Shown here piece by piece: positions 55,031 through 64,000 of a stretch of DNA of 64,000 bases. The notes beneath the pieces were generated by a model. The model was not told the origin of the DNA. It made no database searches and worked only from the letters and a program-made list of their open reading frames with translations. This DNA is from Lachnospiraceae bacterium (GTDB lineage Bacteria; Bacillota; Clostridia; Lachnospirales; Lachnospiraceae), in the NCBI GenBank assembly GCA_017550165.1, contig JAFZQH010000013.1:27063-91062 (forward strand). Direction: 5' to 3'. Every line of letters starts with the position of its first letter. The first letter of the stretch is position 1. The position numbers and the translations under genes were made by a program.

Positions 55031-55720
55031 CTACCTGTCGCCGCTTCGCAGTCTTCTCTCCATCCTGTTGACCAGGGTCTGGAAGATCATGACCATGATA
55101 AGGTAAATGAGCGCCACTGCGATAAGAGGCATAAAGGGCTCATATGTACGGCTTCTGATGATATCTCCGCCCTTGGTGAGATCCTGCAGGGCGATATAGC
55201 CTGCAACGGAGGTCTCTTTAAGCAGGACTATGAACTCATTTCCCAGGGCAGGAAGTACATTTTTAAATGCCTGAGGCATGATAATGTGGCGCATGGTCTG
55301 GACATAGTTAAACCCAAGGCTCCTGCCTGCCTCGAACTGTCCCTTGTCGATGGACATGATGCCGGATCGGAAGATCTCAGCCACATAAGCGCTGGAATTG
55401 ATACCAAAGGCAAATACAGCGACGATAACCTTATCGATATCCACAGCTGCAAATATAACATAGTAAATGATCAGAAGCTGGACAACCACAGGTGTTCCTC
55501 TGATAATGGTAATGTATACCTTACAAATGGCGTTAGGGATCTTACAGGTGCCGTTCAACTCATAAGTAGATCTGATGGCAGCGATTATAAAGCCTACCAC
55601 GATCCCTATGATAAGCGCCAAGAATGTGACCTGGAGTGTAACCCCCAGGCCATTTAACAAATATTTCCATCTGTTATCCTGTATAAAATTCTGAGTAAAT
55701 TTTTCTATAAATATATCCAT
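55031..55720 (-). CDS. amino-acid-type ABC transporter permease
   Basis: 229 residues with about five membrane helices, HisM/GlnP family: NGLGVTLQVTFLALIIGIVVG, RGTPVVVQLLIIYY, and the EAA loop FEAGRSLGFNYVQTMRHIIMPQAFKN. Imports a polar amino acid or related solute together with a binding protein and ATPase. The ATG shares one base with the stop of the binding-protein gene (TAATG), so they are coupled. The expected ATPase gene is not next to it. Confidence 0.93.
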   Translation of the reverse strand: MDIFIEKFTQNFIQDNRWKYLLNGLGVTLQVTFLALIIGIVVGFIIAAIRSTYELNGTCKIPNAICKVYITIIRGTPVVVQLLIIYYVIFAAVDIDKVIVAVFAFGINSSAYVAEIFRSGIMSIDKGQFEAGRSLGFNYVQTMRHIIMPQAFKNVLPALGNEFIVLLKETSVAGYIALQDLTKGGDIIRSRTYEPFMPLIAVALIYLIMVMIFQTLVNRMERRLRSGDR

Positions 55721-56652
55721 TATTCTTTTACGATGATAACCTGACGTCCGGTGTAGTATGTATCAGAAAAATCAACGTTTTTCTTACGATCCTCTGTTAC
55801 GGTCATACCTGCAACACCCACATCGATCTTGCCTGACTGAACGGCACCGATGATGGAATCAAACTCCATGTTCTCGATCTTTAGATCCATTCCCAGCTTG
55901 TCAGCGATAGCCTGCATCATATCTGCATCGATACCTATAACCTGACCGTCTTCGATGAACTCATAGGGCGGGAATTCAGCATTTGTCCCCATAACGATCT
56001 TGCCATTGGGATAGCTTGTTGCAGTAGATTTATATCTTTCAGCATTGGGATTGTCCCCATTGTTTATGTAGTACTTAACGATCTTGTCAAGAGTACCGTC
56101 TGCCTTAAGCTCTGATAATGCCTTGTTGATCTTATCACGAAGGCCGTCAGCTCTGTCCTTCTTAATGGCGATAGCATAGTCTTCCTGAACATAATCGGTA
56201 TCAAGGATCTTCAGTCCGGGTACTGACTTGATGAATTCCTTAGCAGGCTCGTTATCGATAACCACTGCATCGATCTTGCCCTGAGACAGTGCCATAACGG
56301 CCTCTGCGCCCTTGCTGTAACGCTCAACCTTTACATCTCCAAGCTCCTTATCATCGGATACGAACAAGTCCCCTGTGGTACCTGTCTGTACACCGACCTT
56401 CTTGTCCTTAAGGTCTGCCGGGCTGTTAATGCCTGATCCGCCGGCTGATGCGCTTGAAGCTGCTGCTGAAGAAGCCGCTGCGCTTGATCCTGCTGCACTT
56501 GAAGCAGCCGCACTTGATCCTGCCACACTTGATCCTGCCGCACTTGAAGCAGCTGAACTTGATCCGCCTGTGCTTCCGCCGCAGGCTGTCATTCCGAAGA
56601 TCATGGCAGTAGCCATTGCCAATGTAATAACGCTTCTTAATGTCTTTTTCAT
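55720..56652 (-). CDS. amino-acid-type ABC transporter substrate-binding lipoprotein
   Basis: 310 residues. Lipobox GMTAC with the lipidated Cys at residue 24, then a low-complexity Ala/Ser/Gly linker (about 28-73), then a periplasmic-binding-protein type 2 domain (LKDKKVGVQTGTTGDLFV, KIDAVVIDNEPAKEFI, IVMGTNAEFPPYEFIEDGQVIGIDADMMQAIADKLG in two stretches, KIDVGVAGMTVTEDRKKNVDFSDTYY). The ligand is a polar amino acid by family. The linker of AASS-type repeats is unusually long and may vary between strains. Confidence 0.93.
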   Translation of the reverse strand: MKKTLRSVITLAMATAMIFGMTACGGSTGGSSSAASSAAGSSVAGSSAAASSAAGSSAAASSAAASSASAGGSGINSPADLKDKKVGVQTGTTGDLFVSDDKELGDVKVERYSKGAEAVMALSQGKIDAVVIDNEPAKEFIKSVPGLKILDTDYVQEDYAIAIKKDRADGLRDKINKALSELKADGTLDKIVKYYINNGDNPNAERYKSTATSYPNGKIVMGTNAEFPPYEFIEDGQVIGIDADMMQAIADKLGMDLKIENMEFDSIIGAVQSGKIDVGVAGMTVTEDRKKNVDFSDTYYTGRQVIIVKE

Positions 56653-56707: not shown

Positions 56708-56899
56708 CTAGTCCGCTGCATCAATGATGACAACGCTTTTGGTGAGGTCGGCCATGGATATGCGACCCAGAACTTTTCTGACTTCTCCGATGATATCAAC
56801 CAAAGTGATCTCATCACCATCTACGGTGATCTTGGTAATATTATCGCAAATGATCTGATCCTTACTCTCAGTATTCCTGTATGCTGTTGCTAAACACAT
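56708..56899 (-). CDS. CooT family nickel-binding protein
   Basis: 63 residues, starting MCLATAYR, with a Cys directly after the initiator Met, the nickel ligand of the CooT dimer. The rest (KITVDGDEITLVDIIGEVRKVLGRISMADLTKSVVIID) fits the small beta-barrel CooT fold. CooT feeds nickel to carbon monoxide dehydrogenase. Here the neighbours are His- and Cys-tailed proteins and, a few kb on, the acetyl-CoA synthase genes, so a role in CODH/ACS maturation is likely. ATG at 56899 with AAGGAGG upstream. Confidence 0.85.
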   Translation of the reverse strand: MCLATAYRNTESKDQIICDNITKITVDGDEITLVDIIGEVRKVLGRISMADLTKSVVIIDAAD

Positions 56900-56956
56900 A
56901 TCTGCCGCCTCCTTATATGAATTCCTTTACATGCTGTGAACGTTGTTATACAGCGT

Positions 56957-57412
56957 TTACATATTATGAGCCTTAACTATCTCTAACGCGTGTGCCAGTT
57001 TTGCGTTACCCTGCTTGAAGAACTCAACACCCTCAAGTATCTCCTTCGCCGGCTCCGGGAATCCTGCTTCCTTGATCTTCTCAGCAGTTCCAACCAGTTC
57101 CTCCGCATGATGCTCATTATGCTCAAGCATGTACGAAAGAAGGGCTACGTTAGGATCCTTGCTGCCACCTTCATGGCTGTGGCAATGTCCGTGAGTATGG
57201 TCATGTCCGTGCTCACCGTCATGAGTATGCGCATGCTCTGATTCTACATGATCATGATCACCGCTGTGCTCATGGGTGTGCGAATGAACGTGATGGTGGC
57301 TGTGGGTAGTGCCGTCCGCATGGGTATGCTCGTGGCTGTGAACGTGCTCGTGCTCGTGTGAATGCTCATGGTCATGTGTATGCCCATGCTCGTGTGTATG
57401 GTCGTGACTCAT
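56957..57412 (-). CDS. His-rich metal-binding protein, tail form 1
   Basis: 151 residues. The first 80 hold 35 His, mostly as HxH with Asp, Glu, Ser and Thr, and contain a HADGTTHSH segment. The last 65 form a helical domain (LSYMLEHNEHHAEELV, EKIKEAGFPEPAKEILEGVEFFKQGNAKLAHALEIVKAH). The same domain, aligned without gaps, ends the protein at 57444. No signal peptide, so the protein is cytosolic. The tail could hold many nickel, zinc or copper ions. Next to CooT and near ACS genes, nickel storage or delivery is the simplest guess. ATG at 57412 after AAAGGAGG. Confidence 0.82.
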   Translation of the reverse strand: MSHDHTHEHGHTHDHEHSHEHEHVHSHEHTHADGTTHSHHHVHSHTHEHSGDHDHVESEHAHTHDGEHGHDHTHGHCHSHEGGSKDPNVALLSYMLEHNEHHAEELVGTAEKIKEAGFPEPAKEILEGVEFFKQGNAKLAHALEIVKAHNM

Positions 57413-57443
57413 ATTATATCAATCCTCCTTTAGACTCACTTTT

Positions 57444-57755
57444 TCATTGTTTTAACATATCTTTCGCAATACCGATAAGCATATTTCCCTTTTCAAATTC
57501 GGGGATGGCTTTTCGAAGCTTATCTGCGACATCGACTCTTCCTGCTTTCTCAAGGTCCTTAACATATGCGTCAAGTTTCAAGGCTATAACCTGATTCTGC
57601 CGGTAGGTCAGTTCAAGATAATCTGTCATGGTCCGCTCTCCCGGCTCCGGGATATTGCCGTGGGCACAACCGCCATTGCCGTCGCTTGATGCACACTGGC
57701 TGCAATCATGGCCTGCCGATTCGCAATCACTGGTAATACGGTTTTCCTCACACAT
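57444..57755 (-). CDS. Cys-rich small protein, tail form 2, paralog of the His-rich protein
   Basis: 103 residues. The N-terminal 35 hold five Cys (2, 11, 18, 21, 30) and two His, including a CSQC pair, so a metal-binding or iron-sulfur tail is possible. The C-terminal domain (YLELTYRQNQVIALKLDAYV, LEKAGRVDVADKLRKAIPEFEKGN) lines up with the His-rich protein end: AG, then the A..L...I..F..GN pattern at the same spacing. So one domain carries two alternative metal tails. ATG at 57755 with GGGAGG upstream; an unusual structured element lies before it. Confidence 0.8.
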   Translation of the reverse strand: MCEENRITSDCESAGHDCSQCASSDGNGGCAHGNIPEPGERTMTDYLELTYRQNQVIALKLDAYVKDLEKAGRVDVADKLRKAIPEFEKGNMLIGIAKDMLKQ

Positions 57756-57774
57756 GTTATTTCCTCCCTATTTC

Positions 57775-57960
57775 TTATGAAATGAAATACGAATTGCTAC
57801 GCAGCTAAAGCTGCTCCCGCAATTCTACGTACATTCGGAATCCGCTGATTTTTCTTTGAAAAATCGCTACTTCCTCATGTACGTTCGGTCCTCAAGGTTT
57901 TATGACTCCCTGTGCGAGCACAGTCGTCATAAAACTTTTCGTCCCTATATCATTTCATAA
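57775..57960. mobile_element. 186-bp structured element with terminal inverted repeats (MITE-like)
   Basis: The ends TTATGAAATGAAATA (57775) and TATATCATTTCATAA (57946) are inverted copies with one mismatch in 15. Inside are at least three hairpins: AATTGC/GCAATT, GATTTTTC/GAAAAATC and GTTTTATGAC/GTCATAAAAC (57897-57935). There is no coding frame. The right end supplies the last codons and stop of the CsoR-like gene. A non-autonomous element or a structured RNA are both possible. Confidence 0.65.
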
Positions 57961-58360
57961 ATTTATCTATAGCCTCATACAATTCTTCAAGAGCGGCCTC
58001 GTCGCCGTGTTCTACCGCATCCACTACGCAGTGTTTTATATGCTCCTGAAGTATTACTTTTCCTGTGTTATTGATGGCTGACTTTACTGCGGCCAACTGG
58101 ATAAGCACTTCCGCGCAATCTCTGTCTTCATCCACCATCCGCTTAACAGACTCCAGATGTCCTATAGCTCTGGCCAGTCTATTGGATACCTTTTTTACGT
58201 GTTCCTTTGAGTGGTGGTGCCCGTGCTCTCCATGATGGCTGTGGGTAATAACAGTGCCGTCCTCCAGTACATGGGTATGTGATTCGCCATCATGGCAATG
58301 CTCATGATGATGATCATGTGTATGGTCATGGTCATGGAAATGTGTTTTATGCTCGCTCAT
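57950..58360 (-). CDS. CsoR/RcnR family metal-sensing repressor with His-rich N-terminal tail
   Basis: 136 residues. Residues 1-50 hold 20 His (including HVLEDGTVITHSH); residues 53-136 are a CsoR-type four-helix domain. The metal site is Cys82, His107 and Cys111, with the 25 and 4 residue spacing of the copper sensor CsoR, but nickel sensors share this fold with other ligands. It probably represses the following genes (Cys-tail, His-tail, CooT) until metal binds. The tail is unusual in this family and may raise metal sensitivity or also store metal. ATG at 58360 after AGGGGA. Confidence 0.87.
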   Translation of the reverse strand: MSEHKTHFHDHDHTHDHHHEHCHDGESHTHVLEDGTVITHSHHGEHGHHHSKEHVKKVSNRLARAIGHLESVKRMVDEDRDCAEVLIQLAAVKSAINNTGKVILQEHIKHCVVDAVEHGDEAALEELYEAIDKFMK

Positions 58361-58433: not shown

Positions 58434-58468
58434 CAAAAAAATGGGGGTATGTTTTACATACCCCCCAT
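58430..58468 (-). terminator. terminator of the corrinoid protein gene
   Basis: ATGGGGGGTATG and CATACCCCCAT form a stem with a short loop, followed by seven T on the minus strand. Confidence 0.9.
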
Positions 58469-58484
58469 TATGTCGTAACATGAA

Positions 58485-59117
58485 TTATACTAAAGTCTTA
58501 GCAACCTGAGCTGCAGAAGCTGCGTCCTGTGTATAAGCATCAGCACCAATCTCATCAGCGAATTCCTGAGTGATAGGAGCTCCACCAACCATGATCTTAA
58601 CCTGGCTCTGAAGACCTGCATCGATGATAGCCTTAACGGTATCCTTCATAGCAGGCATTGTAGTTGTAAGAAGTGCGGATACACCAACAACCTTGCAGTC
58701 CGGGTTCTCCTTGATAGCCTCAACAAATTTCTCAGCAGGAACATCAACACCGAGGTCGATAACTTCGAAGCCTGCAGACTCGATCATCATAGCAACCAGG
58801 TTCTTACCGATATCATGTAAGTCACCTGCAACTGTACCGATGATGTATTTACCGATAGTAGCTGAGCTGTCGCCTGCCAAATGAGGCTTAAGCACCTCAA
58901 CACCCTTCTTCATGGCACGAGCTGCAACAAGCATCTCGGGAACGAAGATCTCGTTCTTCTTGAACTTATCACCAACAACACCCATAGCGTCGATCATACC
59001 AACGTTAAGGATCTCTGTGGGATCACAACCTTCCTTGATAGCTTCCTCAACAAGACCACCAACGATCTTAGCTTTTCCCGCTTCAACAGCAGCAGCGATT
59101 TCATCAATTTTTGACAT
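58485..59117 (-). CDS. corrinoid protein, methyltransferase type (MtbC/MtvC-like)
   Basis: 210 residues: an N-terminal helical cap (about 1-85) and a B12-binding Rossmann-like domain (about 90-210) with the base-off histidine motif GDLHDIGKNL, then SALLTTTM and GGAPIT. It carries the methyl group on cobalt between a substrate-specific methyltransferase (MT1) and a methyl-H4folate methyltransferase. The partner is the gene at 59245; no MT1 (for example for methanol, vanillate or methylamine) is in the window, so the methyl donor is unknown. Strong ribosome site AAAGGAGG. Confidence 0.92.
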   Translation of the reverse strand: MSKIDEIAAAVEAGKAKIVGGLVEEAIKEGCDPTEILNVGMIDAMGVVGDKFKKNEIFVPEMLVAARAMKKGVEVLKPHLAGDSSATIGKYIIGTVAGDLHDIGKNLVAMMIESAGFEVIDLGVDVPAEKFVEAIKENPDCKVVGVSALLTTTMPAMKDTVKAIIDAGLQSQVKIMVGGAPITQEFADEIGADAYTQDAASAAQVAKTLV

Positions 59118-59172
59118 AATTTTGTCCTCCTTTGTTTTGATAAATAATTCCCTTTTGGTTTTATTTAAGAAA

Positions 59173-59209
59173 ACTATGCCGCTGCTATTTGGCGAAACAG
59201 CAGCATAGT
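59173..59209 (-). terminator. terminator between MeTr1 and the corrinoid gene
   Basis: ACTATGCTGCTG pairs with a CAGCGGCATAGT-type arm, then TTTTCTT on the minus strand. It probably makes the corrinoid gene subject to readthrough or a separate promoter. Confidence 0.72.
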
Positions 59210-59244
59210 ACTCTTACGTAATGCGAAGATGCGTATCTTCCTTT

Positions 59245-60051
59245 TTATTTCTGTGGCGGTCCGAATAATCCGTCACGATAAGCACTGATGTACTCCATGC
59301 AGTAATCGTCCATACCAAGCATAGCCTCTGTAGCATAGATCATACCGATAAGGTCTCTGTTGGTCGGATCGAAGATAGCAGAATCAAGACCGGAGTTCAT
59401 TGAAAGAACTGTAAAGGCCTGATTAAGGATCTTTCTTACGGGCAGGTTAAAGGAAATGTTGGATACAGCACCTGTGATATGGATGGTAGGATACTGCTTC
59501 TTGATCTCCTGCATAACTGATGTAACCATGTTGATACCGTCCTCAGCAGTGCAAAGCATCTCAATAAGGGGATCGATATGAATACGGCTGGGATCGATGT
59601 TGTACTTCTTAACTTCTGCCATAAGGTCAGCAAATACCGAAAGTCTCTTCTCAGCAGTCTGTGGGATACCTGTATCGTCGCAGAGAAGTGCGCATACTTC
59701 CCACTCTGTATCAGCAATAACGGGAAGAACAACCTGAGCCTTGTCACCCTCCATGGAAATGGAGTTGATAAGTCCGGGCTTGTTACAGAACTTCATTGCC
59801 TCAACACAAACTCTGGGGTTCGGGCTGTCAACAGCGATAGGTGTATCTGTAACTTCCTGTACCAGGTCGATAAGCCACTTCATTGTCTCAACTTCTATAT
59901 CATCCTCAACGGAAGCACATACGTCGATAAATGTAGCGTTAGCCTCTGTCTGGATCTTAGCAAGATGCTTGATAAGTTCTGCATCCTTTTCAGCAATAGC
60001 CTTAGCTACTGATGGGATCGATCCGTTAATCTTTTCACCAATGATGATCAT
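59245..60051 (-). CDS. methyltetrahydrofolate:corrinoid methyltransferase 1 (MtvA/MtgA-like)
   Basis: 268 residues, pterin-binding TIM barrel. Starts MIIIGEKINGSIPSVAKAI; core segments ATFIDVCASVEDD, TPIAVDSPNPRVC, IHIDPLIEML and ITGAVSNISFNLPVRK. It moves a methyl group between a corrinoid protein and tetrahydrofolate. It differs from the AcsE-type enzyme at 62745 and is paired by position with the corrinoid protein at 58485, so it should serve an O- or N-demethylation route rather than the acetyl-CoA synthase itself. It has a promoter at 60125. Confidence 0.87.
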   Translation of the reverse strand: MIIIGEKINGSIPSVAKAIAEKDAELIKHLAKIQTEANATFIDVCASVEDDIEVETMKWLIDLVQEVTDTPIAVDSPNPRVCVEAMKFCNKPGLINSISMEGDKAQVVLPVIADTEWEVCALLCDDTGIPQTAEKRLSVFADLMAEVKKYNIDPSRIHIDPLIEMLCTAEDGINMVTSVMQEIKKQYPTIHITGAVSNISFNLPVRKILNQAFTVLSMNSGLDSAIFDPTNRDLIGMIYATEAMLGMDDYCMEYISAYRDGLFGPPQK

Positions 60052-60124
60052 TAATAAATCCTCCTAAAAACTCATTTTGTTCAATTTCACGGGAACCAAC
60101 CGAAAATAGTTCCTCACCTTAGAT

Positions 60125-60153
60125 ATTTTATAGCATAGAGCGAAAAAAGTCAA
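60125..60153 (-). promoter_or_regulatory. promoter of MeTr1
   Basis: Minus strand: -35 TTGACT, 17-base spacer, -10 TAAAAT, about 70 bases before the start. Confidence 0.7.
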
Positions 60154-60228
60154 TGTATTTGATTAAACAATCGGGCCGATAAACCAGTCATTTTTTGTGC
60201 TCTCAATACCAATAATTATTGACATCTT

Positions 60229-62031
60229 CTAATTCCCATTTTCGGGAAATTCCAGTTGATCCACAAAGGTATCCTGGAAGTCAGGATCTGTGGCAAGTTC
60301 AAGAAATTCAGTGTTTTTGGCCATCTTTTGCGCTCTTTTGCACTCAGATCTTGAGAGCGCCGCGATCTTAGACCCCTCACCGGCAGCATTACCGATGGGA
60401 ATGATCCGATCTTCAAGTTCCCTGGGGATCAGTCCGATCGCACAGGCGCTGTGGGGATCCATATAATTGCCGAAAGCCCCTGCTATCATTACCTGTTTGA
60501 TATCTTGTATCTGAATGCCCAGCTGCCTTGACATGAGTTCAATACCTGCCGCCATGGCTCCTTTGGCCAGTTGTACTTCCCGTACATCTTTTTGTCCGAT
60601 GAAGATCTGCTCGCCGTTTCCGCTCTCATTCTTATCCGCCAGCAGAAAGGCTTTCTTGTCTCCTATCTCGATAATGCGTCCGGCATTGGCCTTGGCTGCC
60701 TCGGTCTCCAGCTCGTCCTCATCCACGATACGTCCGCTTTCATCTACTATCCCTGTCTCAAGAAGCAGGGAAATAATGTCCATCAAGCCTGATCCGCATA
60801 TTCCTATGGGCTTGCCGTCCCCGATAACAGACATCTCGAATTTCGTGCCCTTCAGTTTGATATGGTCGATGGCGCCCTCAGAGCCTCTCATGCCGCATTC
60901 TATCTTGGCTCCCTCGAAAGCCGGTCCTGCGGCTGTTGAACAGGTTATCGCCCTGTCCTTATTGCCCAGGACAAGCTCCCCGTTAGTTCCTATATCTATA
61001 GCAAGGGTGATGGGTTCTATCTCATCAAAGCCCGTTGCCAAAAGGACTCCGACTGTATCCGCACCTACGAATCCTGCTATGTTGGACAGGAAGGTCAGCT
61101 TACCGGCGCGATTGATCTTTATCCCGTAGTGTCCCGCATTAACAACCACATTTTCACTTAATGACGGATTGTAGGGCGAATGCACCAGCGCTCCGGGATC
61201 TATTCCAAAGAACAGATGATTCATACAGGTATTCCCCACCAGGTTCACGGCATAAATATCATCTATTTCAATCTTCGCTTTCTTTGCCACTTTCTCTATA
61301 AGGGAATTAAGGGCGCCCCTTATAGCCTCCGCAAGTTCTTTCGTGCCATGCTCAATGGCATAATTGGATCTCTGGATAACGTCAGCGCCAAACTGAGACT
61401 GGGGATTAAGCATAGAAGCCACCGCCAGTTCCTTTCCCGTAGCAGCGTCAAGTAGATATCCCACCACTGATGTGGTTCCAATATCAAATGCCACAATATA
61501 AACCGGCCTGCTCTCAGCACGGACATCTATGATCTCGTCATTGAAAATGACGGCATTTACCTTATAATCATTGGCCTGAAGGAGATTGTACAGATTGGAT
61601 ACAATGCGAATATTGGGCGGGATGGCCTTCTCGTTAATAGCCACACGCTCAGCTACCGCATCCTTCAGCCTCTCCCAGTCGGAACGATTGTCTCCGATAA
61701 TGCACTCTTTGACCGTGATATCTACCGCCTTTAATCCCGGGTCGATATCGATCTTTCTCTCCACTCCTTGTGTCAGGAGATGGTACCCTTTCGGCACATT
61801 GATGAGATCTACTGTCATATCCTCATGGATCTTGGTCTGACAGGCCTTAACGATACCGCTTATTTCCTTGCCGTCAGTGATGTTCACAAGGCATTTACCG
61901 CAGGTCCCCTTACCGCCGCAAGGTGCATCGGGAACGAGCCCGGCCTTGATCTGGGCATCAAGGATGTTGGTGCCGTCCGGCACTTCAACAGTAACATTAT
62001 TGGGAATAAATTTTACAATTCGCTCAGCCAT
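60229..62031 (-). CDS. reductive activator of corrinoid enzymes (RACE, DUF4445)
   Basis: 600 residues. An N-terminal plant-type 2Fe-2S ferredoxin domain with Cys38, 44, 47 and 64 (PCGGKGTCGKCLV then KACQTK), a linker domain, and an ASKHA ATPase-type domain (IVAFDIGTTSVVGYLLD, AIDIGTNGELVLG, VMIAGAFGNYMDP). It uses ATP to return oxidised Co(II) corrinoid to Co(I). In acetogens the form next to acsE and acsC (AcsV) serves the corrinoid iron-sulfur protein. It sits four bases after the DUF3786 gene, so the two are coupled. It may serve either corrinoid protein here. Confidence 0.92.
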   Translation of the reverse strand: MAERIVKFIPNNVTVEVPDGTNILDAQIKAGLVPDAPCGGKGTCGKCLVNITDGKEISGIVKACQTKIHEDMTVDLINVPKGYHLLTQGVERKIDIDPGLKAVDITVKECIIGDNRSDWERLKDAVAERVAINEKAIPPNIRIVSNLYNLLQANDYKVNAVIFNDEIIDVRAESRPVYIVAFDIGTTSVVGYLLDAATGKELAVASMLNPQSQFGADVIQRSNYAIEHGTKELAEAIRGALNSLIEKVAKKAKIEIDDIYAVNLVGNTCMNHLFFGIDPGALVHSPYNPSLSENVVVNAGHYGIKINRAGKLTFLSNIAGFVGADTVGVLLATGFDEIEPITLAIDIGTNGELVLGNKDRAITCSTAAGPAFEGAKIECGMRGSEGAIDHIKLKGTKFEMSVIGDGKPIGICGSGLMDIISLLLETGIVDESGRIVDEDELETEAAKANAGRIIEIGDKKAFLLADKNESGNGEQIFIGQKDVREVQLAKGAMAAGIELMSRQLGIQIQDIKQVMIAGAFGNYMDPHSACAIGLIPRELEDRIIPIGNAAGEGSKIAALSRSECKRAQKMAKNTEFLELATDPDFQDTFVDQLEFPENGN

Positions 62032-62035
62032 ATTA

Positions 62036-62668
62036 TCACACCTTCTTCATCGCGCCTATACTTATATCTCCTACAACTGCCATATCCTCAGCTTTAAATG
62101 CATACTGGAAATTGTCCGAGAACAGTATCTGGGACGAGGGCGGAAACTCATCGTCAGCAGCCCAGAGGATATAGTATACATACAGGTTGTTTAAGAATTC
62201 CAGCTTGTAGGCCACATCCCCCATATCAACCTTCTCGGCCCCCATCTTCTCCATGGCTTCGGCAAATTTGTCCAGCTTAAAGCCATAAGTAAAAGCCAGT
62301 CTCTGAATGCATCTTCCTGTAAACTGCTGGAGGTAAACATCTCCCCAGGGCATATCGGCATAAGCCTTCATCTCCGGTCCCGGATCCTTGTTTACTCCCT
62401 CAAGAAGATAACGTAAGACCAGTATCTCAGAAGCATTGTACTCGGTCAAGGCATGGTATGTTCCATCATCATCTACCGGAGTTATCACATACCCGGGATG
62501 AGTTATTCTGTATTTTTTATTCATCAGAGTTATTGTAAACTCGCATTTTTCCTCGTCATAAGGAACCCGGCACCTTTTAGCGGCCTCTTTGGGGTCCATC
62601 TTCTCATAAAGCGCCTTATAATGTTCAAAGGGCAGACGCTCTTTGTTGTTCTTCTCGTCAACGTTCAT
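62036..62668 (-). CDS. DUF3786 family protein
   Basis: 210 residues from the ATG at 62668; a TTG at 62674 is possible. Soluble: FEHYKALYEKMDPKEAAKRCRVPYDEEK over two stretches, NKKYRITHPGYVI, LLEGVNKDPGPEMKAYADMPWGDVY in part, and LYVYYILWAADDEFPPSSQILFSDNF. It matches DUF3786, which is mostly known from acetogens and methanogens next to corrinoid or CODH/ACS genes, and whose function is not known. The place between acsE and the RACE gene supports a link to corrinoid activation. Confidence 0.8.
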   Translation of the reverse strand: MNVDEKNNKERLPFEHYKALYEKMDPKEAAKRCRVPYDEEKCEFTITLMNKKYRITHPGYVITPVDDDGTYHALTEYNASEILVLRYLLEGVNKDPGPEMKAYADMPWGDVYLQQFTGRCIQRLAFTYGFKLDKFAEAMEKMGAEKVDMGDVAYKLEFLNNLYVYYILWAADDEFPPSSQILFSDNFQYAFKAEDMAVVGDISIGAMKKV

Positions 62669-62692
62669 ACACAAAAAACCTCATGAAATCTT

Positions 62693-62725
62693 TTTAAAAA
62701 ACCGGGAGCGGATTACCGCTCCCGG
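62693..62725 (-). terminator. terminator of acsE
   Basis: CCGGGAGCGG and CCGCTCCCGG with a 4-base loop and TTTTTT on the minus strand. Confidence 0.93.
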
Positions 62726-62744
62726 CTCAAAAGTTTGTATTTGA

Positions 62745-63536
62745 TTACTTTAAGTCATCAAGACAGGAATCAGCATAGAGTACTTCATTTCTGATGATGT
62801 TGGTAACTCTTACTGTCTCCATGAGTCTCTTATCGTTAGGATTAACGATAGCGGATGTAAATCCGTTCATGATAGCCATAGCTAAGAGGTTAGAGTCAAA
62901 GATCTGTCTAAGCTCCTTGGGCATACCGTTGGAGTTATTGGAAAGACCACCTGTTGTGTTAAGTCCCATGTCGCTGATCATTCTGATAGCTTCAAGAACG
63001 TCCATCTGCTTGTCCTGCATTCCCTTGATTACAAGGAATAAGGGGTCAAACCAGAGATCTTCTGCTTCCATACCAAGCCCAAGACCCTTCTCAAGCATTT
63101 CCTGGCAGAATGCCATACGCTCGTCATTATCTGCTGCAACTACACCCTTGGAGCAAAGTGCGATACAGATAGCATCGTTAGCTGCAGCCAGGTCAATGTA
63201 GCCGATTCGATCTCCTGCGTCTGCAGAGTTAACGATAGGCTTACCCTTAGATCTGTTGTATACAGAGATACCGGCCTCGATAGCCTTAGCATTAGATGTG
63301 TCAAGTGCAAGAGGAATGTTGTCACACTCTGACTGAATGAGCTGTACTGCCCACTTCATACGATCCTCTCCGTCTGACTCAGCAGGTCCGATGTTAACAT
63401 CGATATAATCTGCGCCTGCAGCAATCTGCTCTTTTGCTCTCTTGATGATAGGCTCAGGATCTCTCTCTGTTAAAGCCTTGTTCATAGATGGAGCTGTTGT
63501 AGAAATTCTCTCTCCGATTACGATAAATTTACCCAT
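62745..63536 (-). CDS. acsE: methyltetrahydrofolate:corrinoid iron-sulfur protein methyltransferase
   Basis: 263 residues, pterin-binding TIM barrel of the Wood-Ljungdahl type. FIVIGERISTTAPSMNKAL, ADYIDVNIGPAESDGEDRMKW split in two, IPLALDTSNAKAIEAG, IVNSADAGDR, LWFDPLFLVIKGMQDKQ, and NTTGGLSNNSNGMP. It moves the methyl group of methyl-H4folate to the corrinoid iron-sulfur protein, whose large subunit lies directly upstream. Start MGKFIVIG at 63536; ends at a strong terminator. Confidence 0.93.
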   Translation of the reverse strand: MGKFIVIGERISTTAPSMNKALTERDPEPIIKRAKEQIAAGADYIDVNIGPAESDGEDRMKWAVQLIQSECDNIPLALDTSNAKAIEAGISVYNRSKGKPIVNSADAGDRIGYIDLAAANDAICIALCSKGVVAADNDERMAFCQEMLEKGLGLGMEAEDLWFDPLFLVIKGMQDKQMDVLEAIRMISDMGLNTTGGLSNNSNGMPKELRQIFDSNLLAMAIMNGFTSAIVNPNDKRLMETVRVTNIIRNEVLYADSCLDDLK

Positions 63537-63596
63537 TAAAACTCTCCTCTCACTTATGTGTTTTTATTATTTAAGATATACTGATTTCTCTATATC

Positions 63597-64000
63597 TTAG
63601 AGGTCTTTCATGAACTTAACGAGCTGTACTGCCTCGTTAGGAGCTACGATGATCTCCCAATCCGGAAGCTTGGCTTCTATCTCACCCTTAAGAACTGCTA
63701 CCTTACCGGGGATGATGAGCTTTCTGCTCTTGATCTTACCTGCGATATCCTGCTCCTCGAAGAACTTGGCAATAGTAGAAGCAGAGAGCTTACCAGCAGC
63801 CCAAGCAGTAAGAACTGACATTCCGCCTGCATCAGAGATAAGAAGGTTAACCGGCTTACCTGAACGCTCTAACTCACCTGAAACAACGAAGTATGTAAGA
63901 GCGAAGTCAACTGTTGTAGCACAGATATCATCAGGTGTAGCACCATTGATAGGATAGATACCCGGCTCAACTGTCATGGGCTTCTGAGGATCTGTGAATA
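63597..64000 (-). CDS. acsC: corrinoid iron-sulfur protein large subunit, C-terminal part (cut by window)
   Basis: Only the last 134 codons are visible; the frame stays open to the window end (FTDPQKPMTVEPGIYPING). The ATG at 63977 is internal. Segments typical of the C-terminal corrinoid-binding part are present: CATTVDFALTYFVVSGELE, LLISDAGGMSVLTAWAAGKLSA, KSRKLIIPGKVAVLKGEIEAKLPDWEIIV in two pieces. The large subunit (AcsC/CdhE) carries the cobalt methyl group to acetyl-CoA synthase. It is 60 bases from acsE and in the same direction, and it proves the presence of the ACS branch. Confidence 0.9.
   Translation of the reverse strand, partial: FTDPQKPMTVEPGIYPINGATPDDICATTVDFALTYFVVSGELERSGKPVNLLISDAGGMSVLTAWAAGKLSASTIAKFFEEQDIAGKIKSRKLIIPGKVAVLKGEIEAKLPDWEIIVAPNEAVQLVKFMKDL

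Follow-up and report, generated by a model that had tools for sequence, protein, structure and literature searches.

Candidate genes for nickel handling beside acetyl-CoA synthase in a Lachnospiraceae bacterium

Introduction

Four small genes next to the operon for carbon monoxide dehydrogenase (CODH) and acetyl-CoA synthase (ACS) of a Lachnospiraceae bacterium raise the question of which metal their products handle, and for which enzyme. The genes occupy positions 56708-58360 of a stretch of 64,000 nucleotides (GenBank assembly GCA_017550165.1, contig JAFZQH010000013.1, positions 27,063 to 91,062), referred to here as the window. They encode CooT, a His-rich protein (His-tail), a Cys-rich protein (Cys-tail) and a repressor of the CsoR/RcnR/InrS family (CsoR). 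ACS is loaded by the AcsF/CooC ATPases; we know of no established donor for nickel into the di-nickel A-cluster of ACS, nor of the nickel donor of these ATPases. The answer favored here, and in our judgment a fairly probable one, is that the four genes would be an annex to the CODH/ACS operon that handles nickel, made up of a buffer, a delivery protein, a Cys-rich paralogue and an InrS-like repressor.

Four genes on one strand

All four open reading frames (ORFs) lie on the minus strand, between ABC transporter genes that follow CooT and genes of the ACS side, as stated by the original prediction, which had been made from the letters of the window alone; the ACS side can now be described gene by gene. 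The features that it had reported for the individual products were recovered as well. CooT (56708-56899; 63 amino acids) matches PF10133 with 57.9 bits (cut-off 27) and starts with MCLATAY, which places Cys at position 2, directly after Met. His-tail (56957-57412; 151 amino acids) combines a His run in residues 1-85, with 35 His within the first 80 residues, and a two-helix hairpin in residues 86-151. Cys-tail (57444-57755; 103 amino acids) has five Cys in its first 30 residues (2, 11, 18, 21 and 30), followed by a hairpin that lacks the His motif described below. The repressor (57950-58360; 136 amino acids; PF02583, 95.6 bits, cut-off 22.8) carries 20 His in its first 50 residues and the positions H50-C82-H107-C111, the last three of which had been predicted as its metal site. 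The intergenic gaps are 57 bases between CooT and His-tail, 31 between His-tail and Cys-tail, and 194 between Cys-tail and CsoR.

Among the 251 ORFs of at least 50 amino acids in the window, His-tail and CsoR have the highest His content per 50 residues (23 and 20, with 11 for the next one), so that their His richness is beyond chance. The Cys content of Cys-tail taken alone is ordinary, as at least five other ORFs in the window reach at least 5 Cys per 30 residues. CooT is the sole CooT found in its genome, and CsoR the sole PF02583 member.

A hairpin shared by His-tail and Cys-tail

No Pfam or NCBIfam family was found for His-tail or Cys-tail in the database copies used. Their C-terminal parts give a weak BLASTP alignment (23% identity, E 0.001), and a profile-profile comparison of 26 His-type hairpins with 10 Cys-tails matches with a probability of 98.2% (E 3e-14). 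AlphaFold2 places helices at residues 87-115 and 119-150 of His-tail and at residues 43-70 and 74-102 of Cys-tail, with a predicted local distance difference test score above 90 over most of both hairpins; the tails are poorly predicted. Judged from sequence, the hairpin domain is common to both tail proteins, which appear to be paralogues joined by this C-terminal part.

The His-tail hairpin contains the motif H98-N99-x2-H102-A-x-E105-L. In window numbering, H98, N99, H102, A103, E105, L106 and A142 are invariant in 26/26 His-type hairpins, and the spacing of H98, H102 and E105 could put these residues on one helix face. All ten Cys-tails have Ile at the position of H102, and H98 and E105 are replaced in them as well; invariant instead are the five Cys (C-x8-C-x6-C-x2-C-x8-C). 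Cys-tail is present in both of the genomes of the window's genus that were examined, and eight further Cys-tail proteins, host unknown, were found among 5.8 billion sequences. Two of these eight carry a precomputed PF26551 label, which was not reproduced with the Pfam copy used. A wider protein search with residues 85-151 of His-tail returned one candidate and nothing significant, and a plasmid search gave no match.

Distribution with ACS, CODH and CooT

The distribution of the pair was followed in a family sample (200 genomes of the window's family, each from a different genus), a class sample (236 genomes, searched with a hairpin profile) and a set of named loci, namely the best 80 of 124, mostly from Blautia and other Lachnospiraceae. 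In the family sample, ACS was called at PF03598 E<1e-60 and CODH at a match over the cut-off. Weak PF03598 matches (E 4e-10 to 5e-4), the sole ones in thirteen family genomes, did not count as ACS, and the same was applied to G420 and G206 of the class; CODH matches that were partial and below the cut-off were left uncounted, which concerns G162 of the family and G229, G309 and G347 of the class. Related genomes in both samples are not independent of each other, and the Fisher p-values calculated for the counts take no account of common descent.

The family sample contains 26 genomes with CooT, 25 with the hairpin by single-sequence search, 23 with ACS and 40 with CODH; the hairpin of G009 was added by a profile that was run on fetched loci only. 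CooT and the hairpin both occur in 23/23 ACS genomes, and neither occurs in any of the 17 CODH-only genomes. In the class sample, the hairpin was found in 10 genomes, i.e., 9/12 with ACS, 0/32 with CODH only and 1/192 with neither, and CooT in 27, i.e., 12/12, 8/32 and 7/192, respectively. From these class counts, ACS is tracked more closely by the hairpin than by CooT.

Homologues in organisms without CODH/ACS had been named as a point that would speak against ACS supply. This point does not apply to the hairpin, which is rare in genomes without CODH (3/160 in the family and 1/192 in the class); it applies in part to CooT in the class sample, with the 7/192 and the 8/32 given above. Of the proposed unit of sensor, storage and delivery, the link of His-tail and CooT to ACS is supported, both being present and adjacent in all 23 family ACS genomes. 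Membership of Cys-tail and CsoR is not supported as proposed, since they are no conserved part of acetogen loci (0/80 named loci, none in the loci of 25 relatives).

Gene order and the AcsB junction

The hairpin gene adjoins CooT in 26/26 family genomes and in 80/80 named loci, where adjacency was scored by the distance between stops. The H-N motif in the named loci holds by construction, because the search patterns contained it. The stretches of the named loci include CODH in 74/80 and AcsB in 63/80; the remaining 17 stretches stop 1.1-4.9 kb downstream. On this predicted gene content, CooT and the hairpin are adjacent and track ACS, and the inferred link to nickel and ACS appears well supported by the distribution.

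The usual order in the family is hairpin-CooT-(MetF)-CooC-CooS-CooC-AcsB. In the window's genus, the hairpin/CooT pair instead closes the CODH/ACS operon. The window stops at the end of its contig, and AcsB and CODH sit on another contig, C2. In G311, the sister genome, all genes from CooC through to the ABC transporter follow one another without a break and on one strand, from locus L151 on into L152, in the order CooC-CooS-CooC-AcsB-AcsB-AcsD-AcsC-AcsE-DUF3786-AcsV-methyltransferase-corrinoid-CsoR-Cys-His-CooT-SBP-permease (SBP, substrate-binding protein). A tandem pair of AcsB genes is present in both the window's genome (G000:C2 51688-54648) and the sister genome (L151 4095-8616).

The His-hairpin gene adjoins AcsB in G288 and G382. 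In G402 (L154 7697-10618, minus strand), a single frame of 973 residues without a stop runs through a His-rich stretch, the hairpin and a complete AcsB. The Shine–Dalgarno sequence and start of AcsB are kept inside this frame, and AcsB may therefore be produced on its own as well. A protein search with the fusion region returned 78 candidates, none significant, and hence no second AcsB fusion.

These gene orders bear on the strongest competing explanation, in which His-tail would be a CooJ-type nickel chaperone that acts with CooT and CooC in filling the C-cluster of the CODH that partners ACS, and not ACS itself. CODH operons are known to encode CooT and CooJ, mutants of Rhodospirillum rubrum need extra nickel (PMC6006190), a 2026 survey names His-rich neighbors of CooT CooJ (PMC13056359), and the hairpin-CooT pair stands directly before CooC-CooS in most family loci. 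However, the hairpin is absent from all CODH-only genomes of both samples (0/17 and 0/32), and three genomes have the pair either next to AcsB or in fusion with it. We consider maturation of CODH an unlikely explanation, though one to be taken seriously, and the A-cluster of ACS, rather than the C-cluster of CODH, the probable target.

Separate ligands in the window's genus

In most relatives the two ligand sets are found in one protein. A His run and at least three Cys share one tail in 19/25 family relatives, the other six having none or one Cys, and 76/80 named loci show the pattern C-x1-3-C-x2-8-C. Three named or sister forms have HDCSSC or HDCSNC where Cys-tail has HDCSQC. In the window's genus, His-tail has one Cys and the tail of Cys-tail has two His. 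The simplest reading is that the Cys/His pair arose by duplication of an ancestor with both ligand sets, one set having been lost in each copy. No second hairpin gene was seen in the 80 named loci or in the loci of the 25 relatives; G382 has a weak, tail-less second one (16 bits). Among the genomes searched, only those of the window's genus (2/2) have both paralogues and the His-tailed CsoR.

The five invariant Cys in all ten Cys-tails also allow another explanation, in which Cys-tail would bring iron-sulphur clusters to the [4Fe-4S] half of the A-cluster and His-tail would serve the nickel half. The Cys pattern resembles the N-terminus of Mrp/NBP35 scaffolds. Against this, no Mrp-like protein with the Cys-tail motif was found in the loci examined, and most relatives carry the Cys motif and the His run in one protein. 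Such an iron-sulphur carrier seems rather improbable.

An InrS-like repressor

The closest solved structure to the repressor is the nickel regulator InrS of Synechocystis (5fmn, 81.5 bits); copper CsoRs reach at most 60.4 bits. H50, C82, H107 and C111 align with H21, C53, H78 and C82 of InrS, ligand residues named in PMC4235346, so that the predicted repressor carries the four ligand positions of InrS. In a tail so rich in His, a residue such as H50 is likely to meet the H21 position of InrS by chance, and H21 is dispensable for nickel binding in InrS (PMC4235346). The copper-sensor 'A' tyrosine, at the position defined in PMC4235346, is replaced by D81, and of the two glutamates the 'B' one is present (E126) and the 'C' one is absent (A123). 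InrS and the repressor of the window thus have in common the H-C-H-C positions, the 'B' glutamate and a His-rich N-terminus. They differ in the number of His, with 21 in the first 55 residues of the window's protein and six N-terminal ones in InrS (PMC4235346), in the 'C' glutamate and in the exporter, as none is encoded beside the window's repressor. The best NCBIfam match, below the cut-off, is the copper sensor RicR (58.8 of 175 bits). The 80 named loci showed no CsoR.

A G-tract inverted repeat upstream of the repressor gene (58443-58476) was considered as a CsoR-family operator and rejected, as it ends in a T-run. It is read as a terminator (hairpin and T-run at 58443-58465, minus strand, between the corrinoid gene and CsoR) because of that T-run and because an unrelated terminator-like stem stands at the same place in G311; the stem and T-run of G311, read by eye, differ from those of the window. 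The terminator scan as such did not exceed chance (1 found against 1.7 expected in shuffles), and the promoter scan yielded 7 sites where 5.2 were expected, which is no evidence. The repressor presumably controls the operon.

That the genes form a general metal buffer or detoxify excess copper, zinc or nickel, with a CsoR that answers to copper, is very doubtful: the His- and Cys-rich tails, the CsoR-family repressor with RicR as its best match below the NCBIfam cut-off, and the mutant phenotypes of Clostridium autoethanogenum, seen in rich medium only (PMC10230548), fit it, but the repressor has D81 in place of the 'A' tyrosine and InrS as its best match, the pair tracks ACS, and no copper exporter is annotated among the surrounding genes examined, the rest of the genome not having been searched.

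Proposed mechanism and points against it

If the four genes are a nickel annex, the metal handled would be nickel and the His run its store. In the proposed mechanism, the His run of His-tail would hold incoming Ni(II), CooT would hand it over to the operon's CooC-type ATPases and through them to ACS, and the InrS-like repressor would set the level of the module, the store being raised when nickel rises. For Cys-tail, three roles are conceivable: binding of a softer metal, protection of the A-cluster from Cu(I) or Zn(II), or transport of an Fe-S cluster. CooC-like ATPases are encoded in the same operon as the hairpin/CooT pair, and the pair is a candidate nickel donor to the AcsF/CooC ATPases.

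Published genetics fit this proposal in part. CooT of R. rubrum binds nickel through Cys2 (PMC6006190). In a 2023 study of C. autoethanogenum, mutants deleted for hp, the gene of a His-rich protein, or for nbp (CooT) grew 21-37% more slowly in rich medium, with 1.5- and 1.8-fold less ACS protein, respectively (PMC10230548).

Several observations weigh against a nickel annex dedicated to ACS. In the same C. autoethanogenum mutants CooS1 is also lower, both mutants are unaffected in minimal medium, and extra nickel changed nothing for the nbp mutant (PMC10230548). CODH partnered with ACS forms its own clade (PMC13056359), and for that reason a phyletic profile cannot split ACS from its partner CODH. 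Four genomes carry the hairpin and CooT without ACS or CODH, and the class search missed three ACS genomes, namely G227 (72% complete), G353 and G407; G407 does have a tail-less hairpin beside CooT, at a local E of 7e-6. In G262, G361 and G423 the hairpin has no His tail, its neighbor is a second CooT, and the 17.7-20 kb fetched around it contain no ACS gene; in G256 the hairpin is on a separate contig of 8.1 kb. The AcsB fusion of G402 may reflect a lost stop or a sequencing error, as it is a single case with an internal Shine–Dalgarno sequence. In the tree made for the origin of Cys-tail, 24/33 inner branches are open, which leaves its branching point unplaced. Lastly, the repressor lacks the 'C' glutamate of InrS, and according to the InrS authors the W-X-Y-Z pattern is no predictor of metal (PMC4235346), which makes nickel sensing by CsoR a lead. 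As a separate observation, the CooT of G256 (L276 9821-10315, minus strand) has a long Gly/Ala/Ser-rich insertion after the first strand region.

Loci without ACS and CODH

The four genomes with hairpin and CooT and without ACS or CODH are G009, G081, G199 and G420. Near the hairpin and CooT, all four encode paired HGD-D proteins, which are of the double-cubane type, and a CdhC-like protein with a length of about 240-265 residues. The CdhC-like protein resembles the middle domain of ACS and has a C-terminal C-x2-C-x5-C. A BadF-type activase is intact in 3/4, the match in G199 being one at a contig edge only, and a CooC-like ATPase is present in 3/4 of the four genomes. Such loci are found in L122 (10108-18785), L124 (6954-12727), L121 (581-7457) and L275 (5457-14083), and also in L067-L072. 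The set also occurs without CooT: BadF and/or HGD-D were found in 6/7 loci with weak PF03598 matches (one being G009), and CooT is absent from 12/13 family genomes with only such matches.

The CdhC-like/HGD-D set may be a second nickel client. A bolder version, to which we give little credence, is that the His-hairpin/CooT pair would be a dedicated nickel delivery system for ACS-fold enzymes, with the CdhC-like/HGD-D locus marking an unrecognized nickel enzyme, conceivably the one that replaces ACS in acetogens of this kind. A Lachnospiraceae acetogen without canonical CODH/ACS has been described (PMC7000372).

Surroundings of the four genes

All surrounding features lie on the minus strand. 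The amino-acid-type ABC permease and substrate-binding protein (55031-56652) follow directly after CooT, with a gap of 55 bases. The substrate-binding protein (55720-56652) appears circularly permuted: profile positions 17-117 correspond to residues 210-309, and positions 121-240 of an ArtI-type profile to residues 78-195. On the other side (58485-63977) are the genes for a corrinoid protein, a methyltransferase-like protein, AcsV/RACo, DUF3786, AcsE and the C-terminal part of AcsC. The corrinoid protein and the second AcsE-like methyltransferase (58485-60051) are inserted between AcsV and CsoR, and occur together in G154 (L120) as well. A Clostridiales-1 RNA (RF01699; 57782-57953) stands between CsoR and Cys-tail, with 115.8 bits (gathering cut-off 48). 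Four more copies or part-copies of this RNA are present in the window's genome, two of which adjoin the acsB genes on contig C2.

Relation to known systems

The original prediction knew of no described unit with this combination. The pair of a His-rich protein and CooT, however, is known as hp/nbp of C. autoethanogenum (CAETHG_1604/1605; PMC10230548). There too, a His-rich protein adjoins CooT beside CODH/ACS genes; a described domain, a Cys paralogue or a CsoR is not reported in the available part of that paper. His-tail is likened to hp (CAETHG_1604) by description and gene place. CooJ of R. rubrum (PMC6006190) is likewise a His-rich protein encoded with CooT and CODH. Unlike in His-tail, where the run is N-terminal (residues 1-85 of 151), the His run of CooJ is C-terminal, and CooJ serves a CODH without ACS (PMC6006190). 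No CooJ chain was among the listed PDB sequence or fold matches, though the two proteins may still be kin. CooT of the window resembles known CooT (PF10133) in its full-length match and Cys2, and differs in that, in the window's family, it follows ACS and not CODH alone. Known CooT binds Ni(II) in dimeric form.

The four genes represent a variant of the hp/CooT pair known from acetogens; new relative to that pair are the shared hairpin, an apparent His/Cys split, a bias to ACS and an InrS-like sensor. Among the open-licence papers listed, none was seen to describe the hairpin, the split into His and Cys paralogues or the fusion with AcsB.

Implications

Nickel supply to the A-cluster is a central step in acetogenic carbon fixation and in gas fermentation. 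A hairpin that follows ACS over CODH, lies beside AcsB and is once in frame with it offers a concrete donor candidate for this step. The genus of the window provides a natural experiment, as it has a His-only and a Cys-only paralogue together with a matching sensor, and it could show the role of each ligand set.
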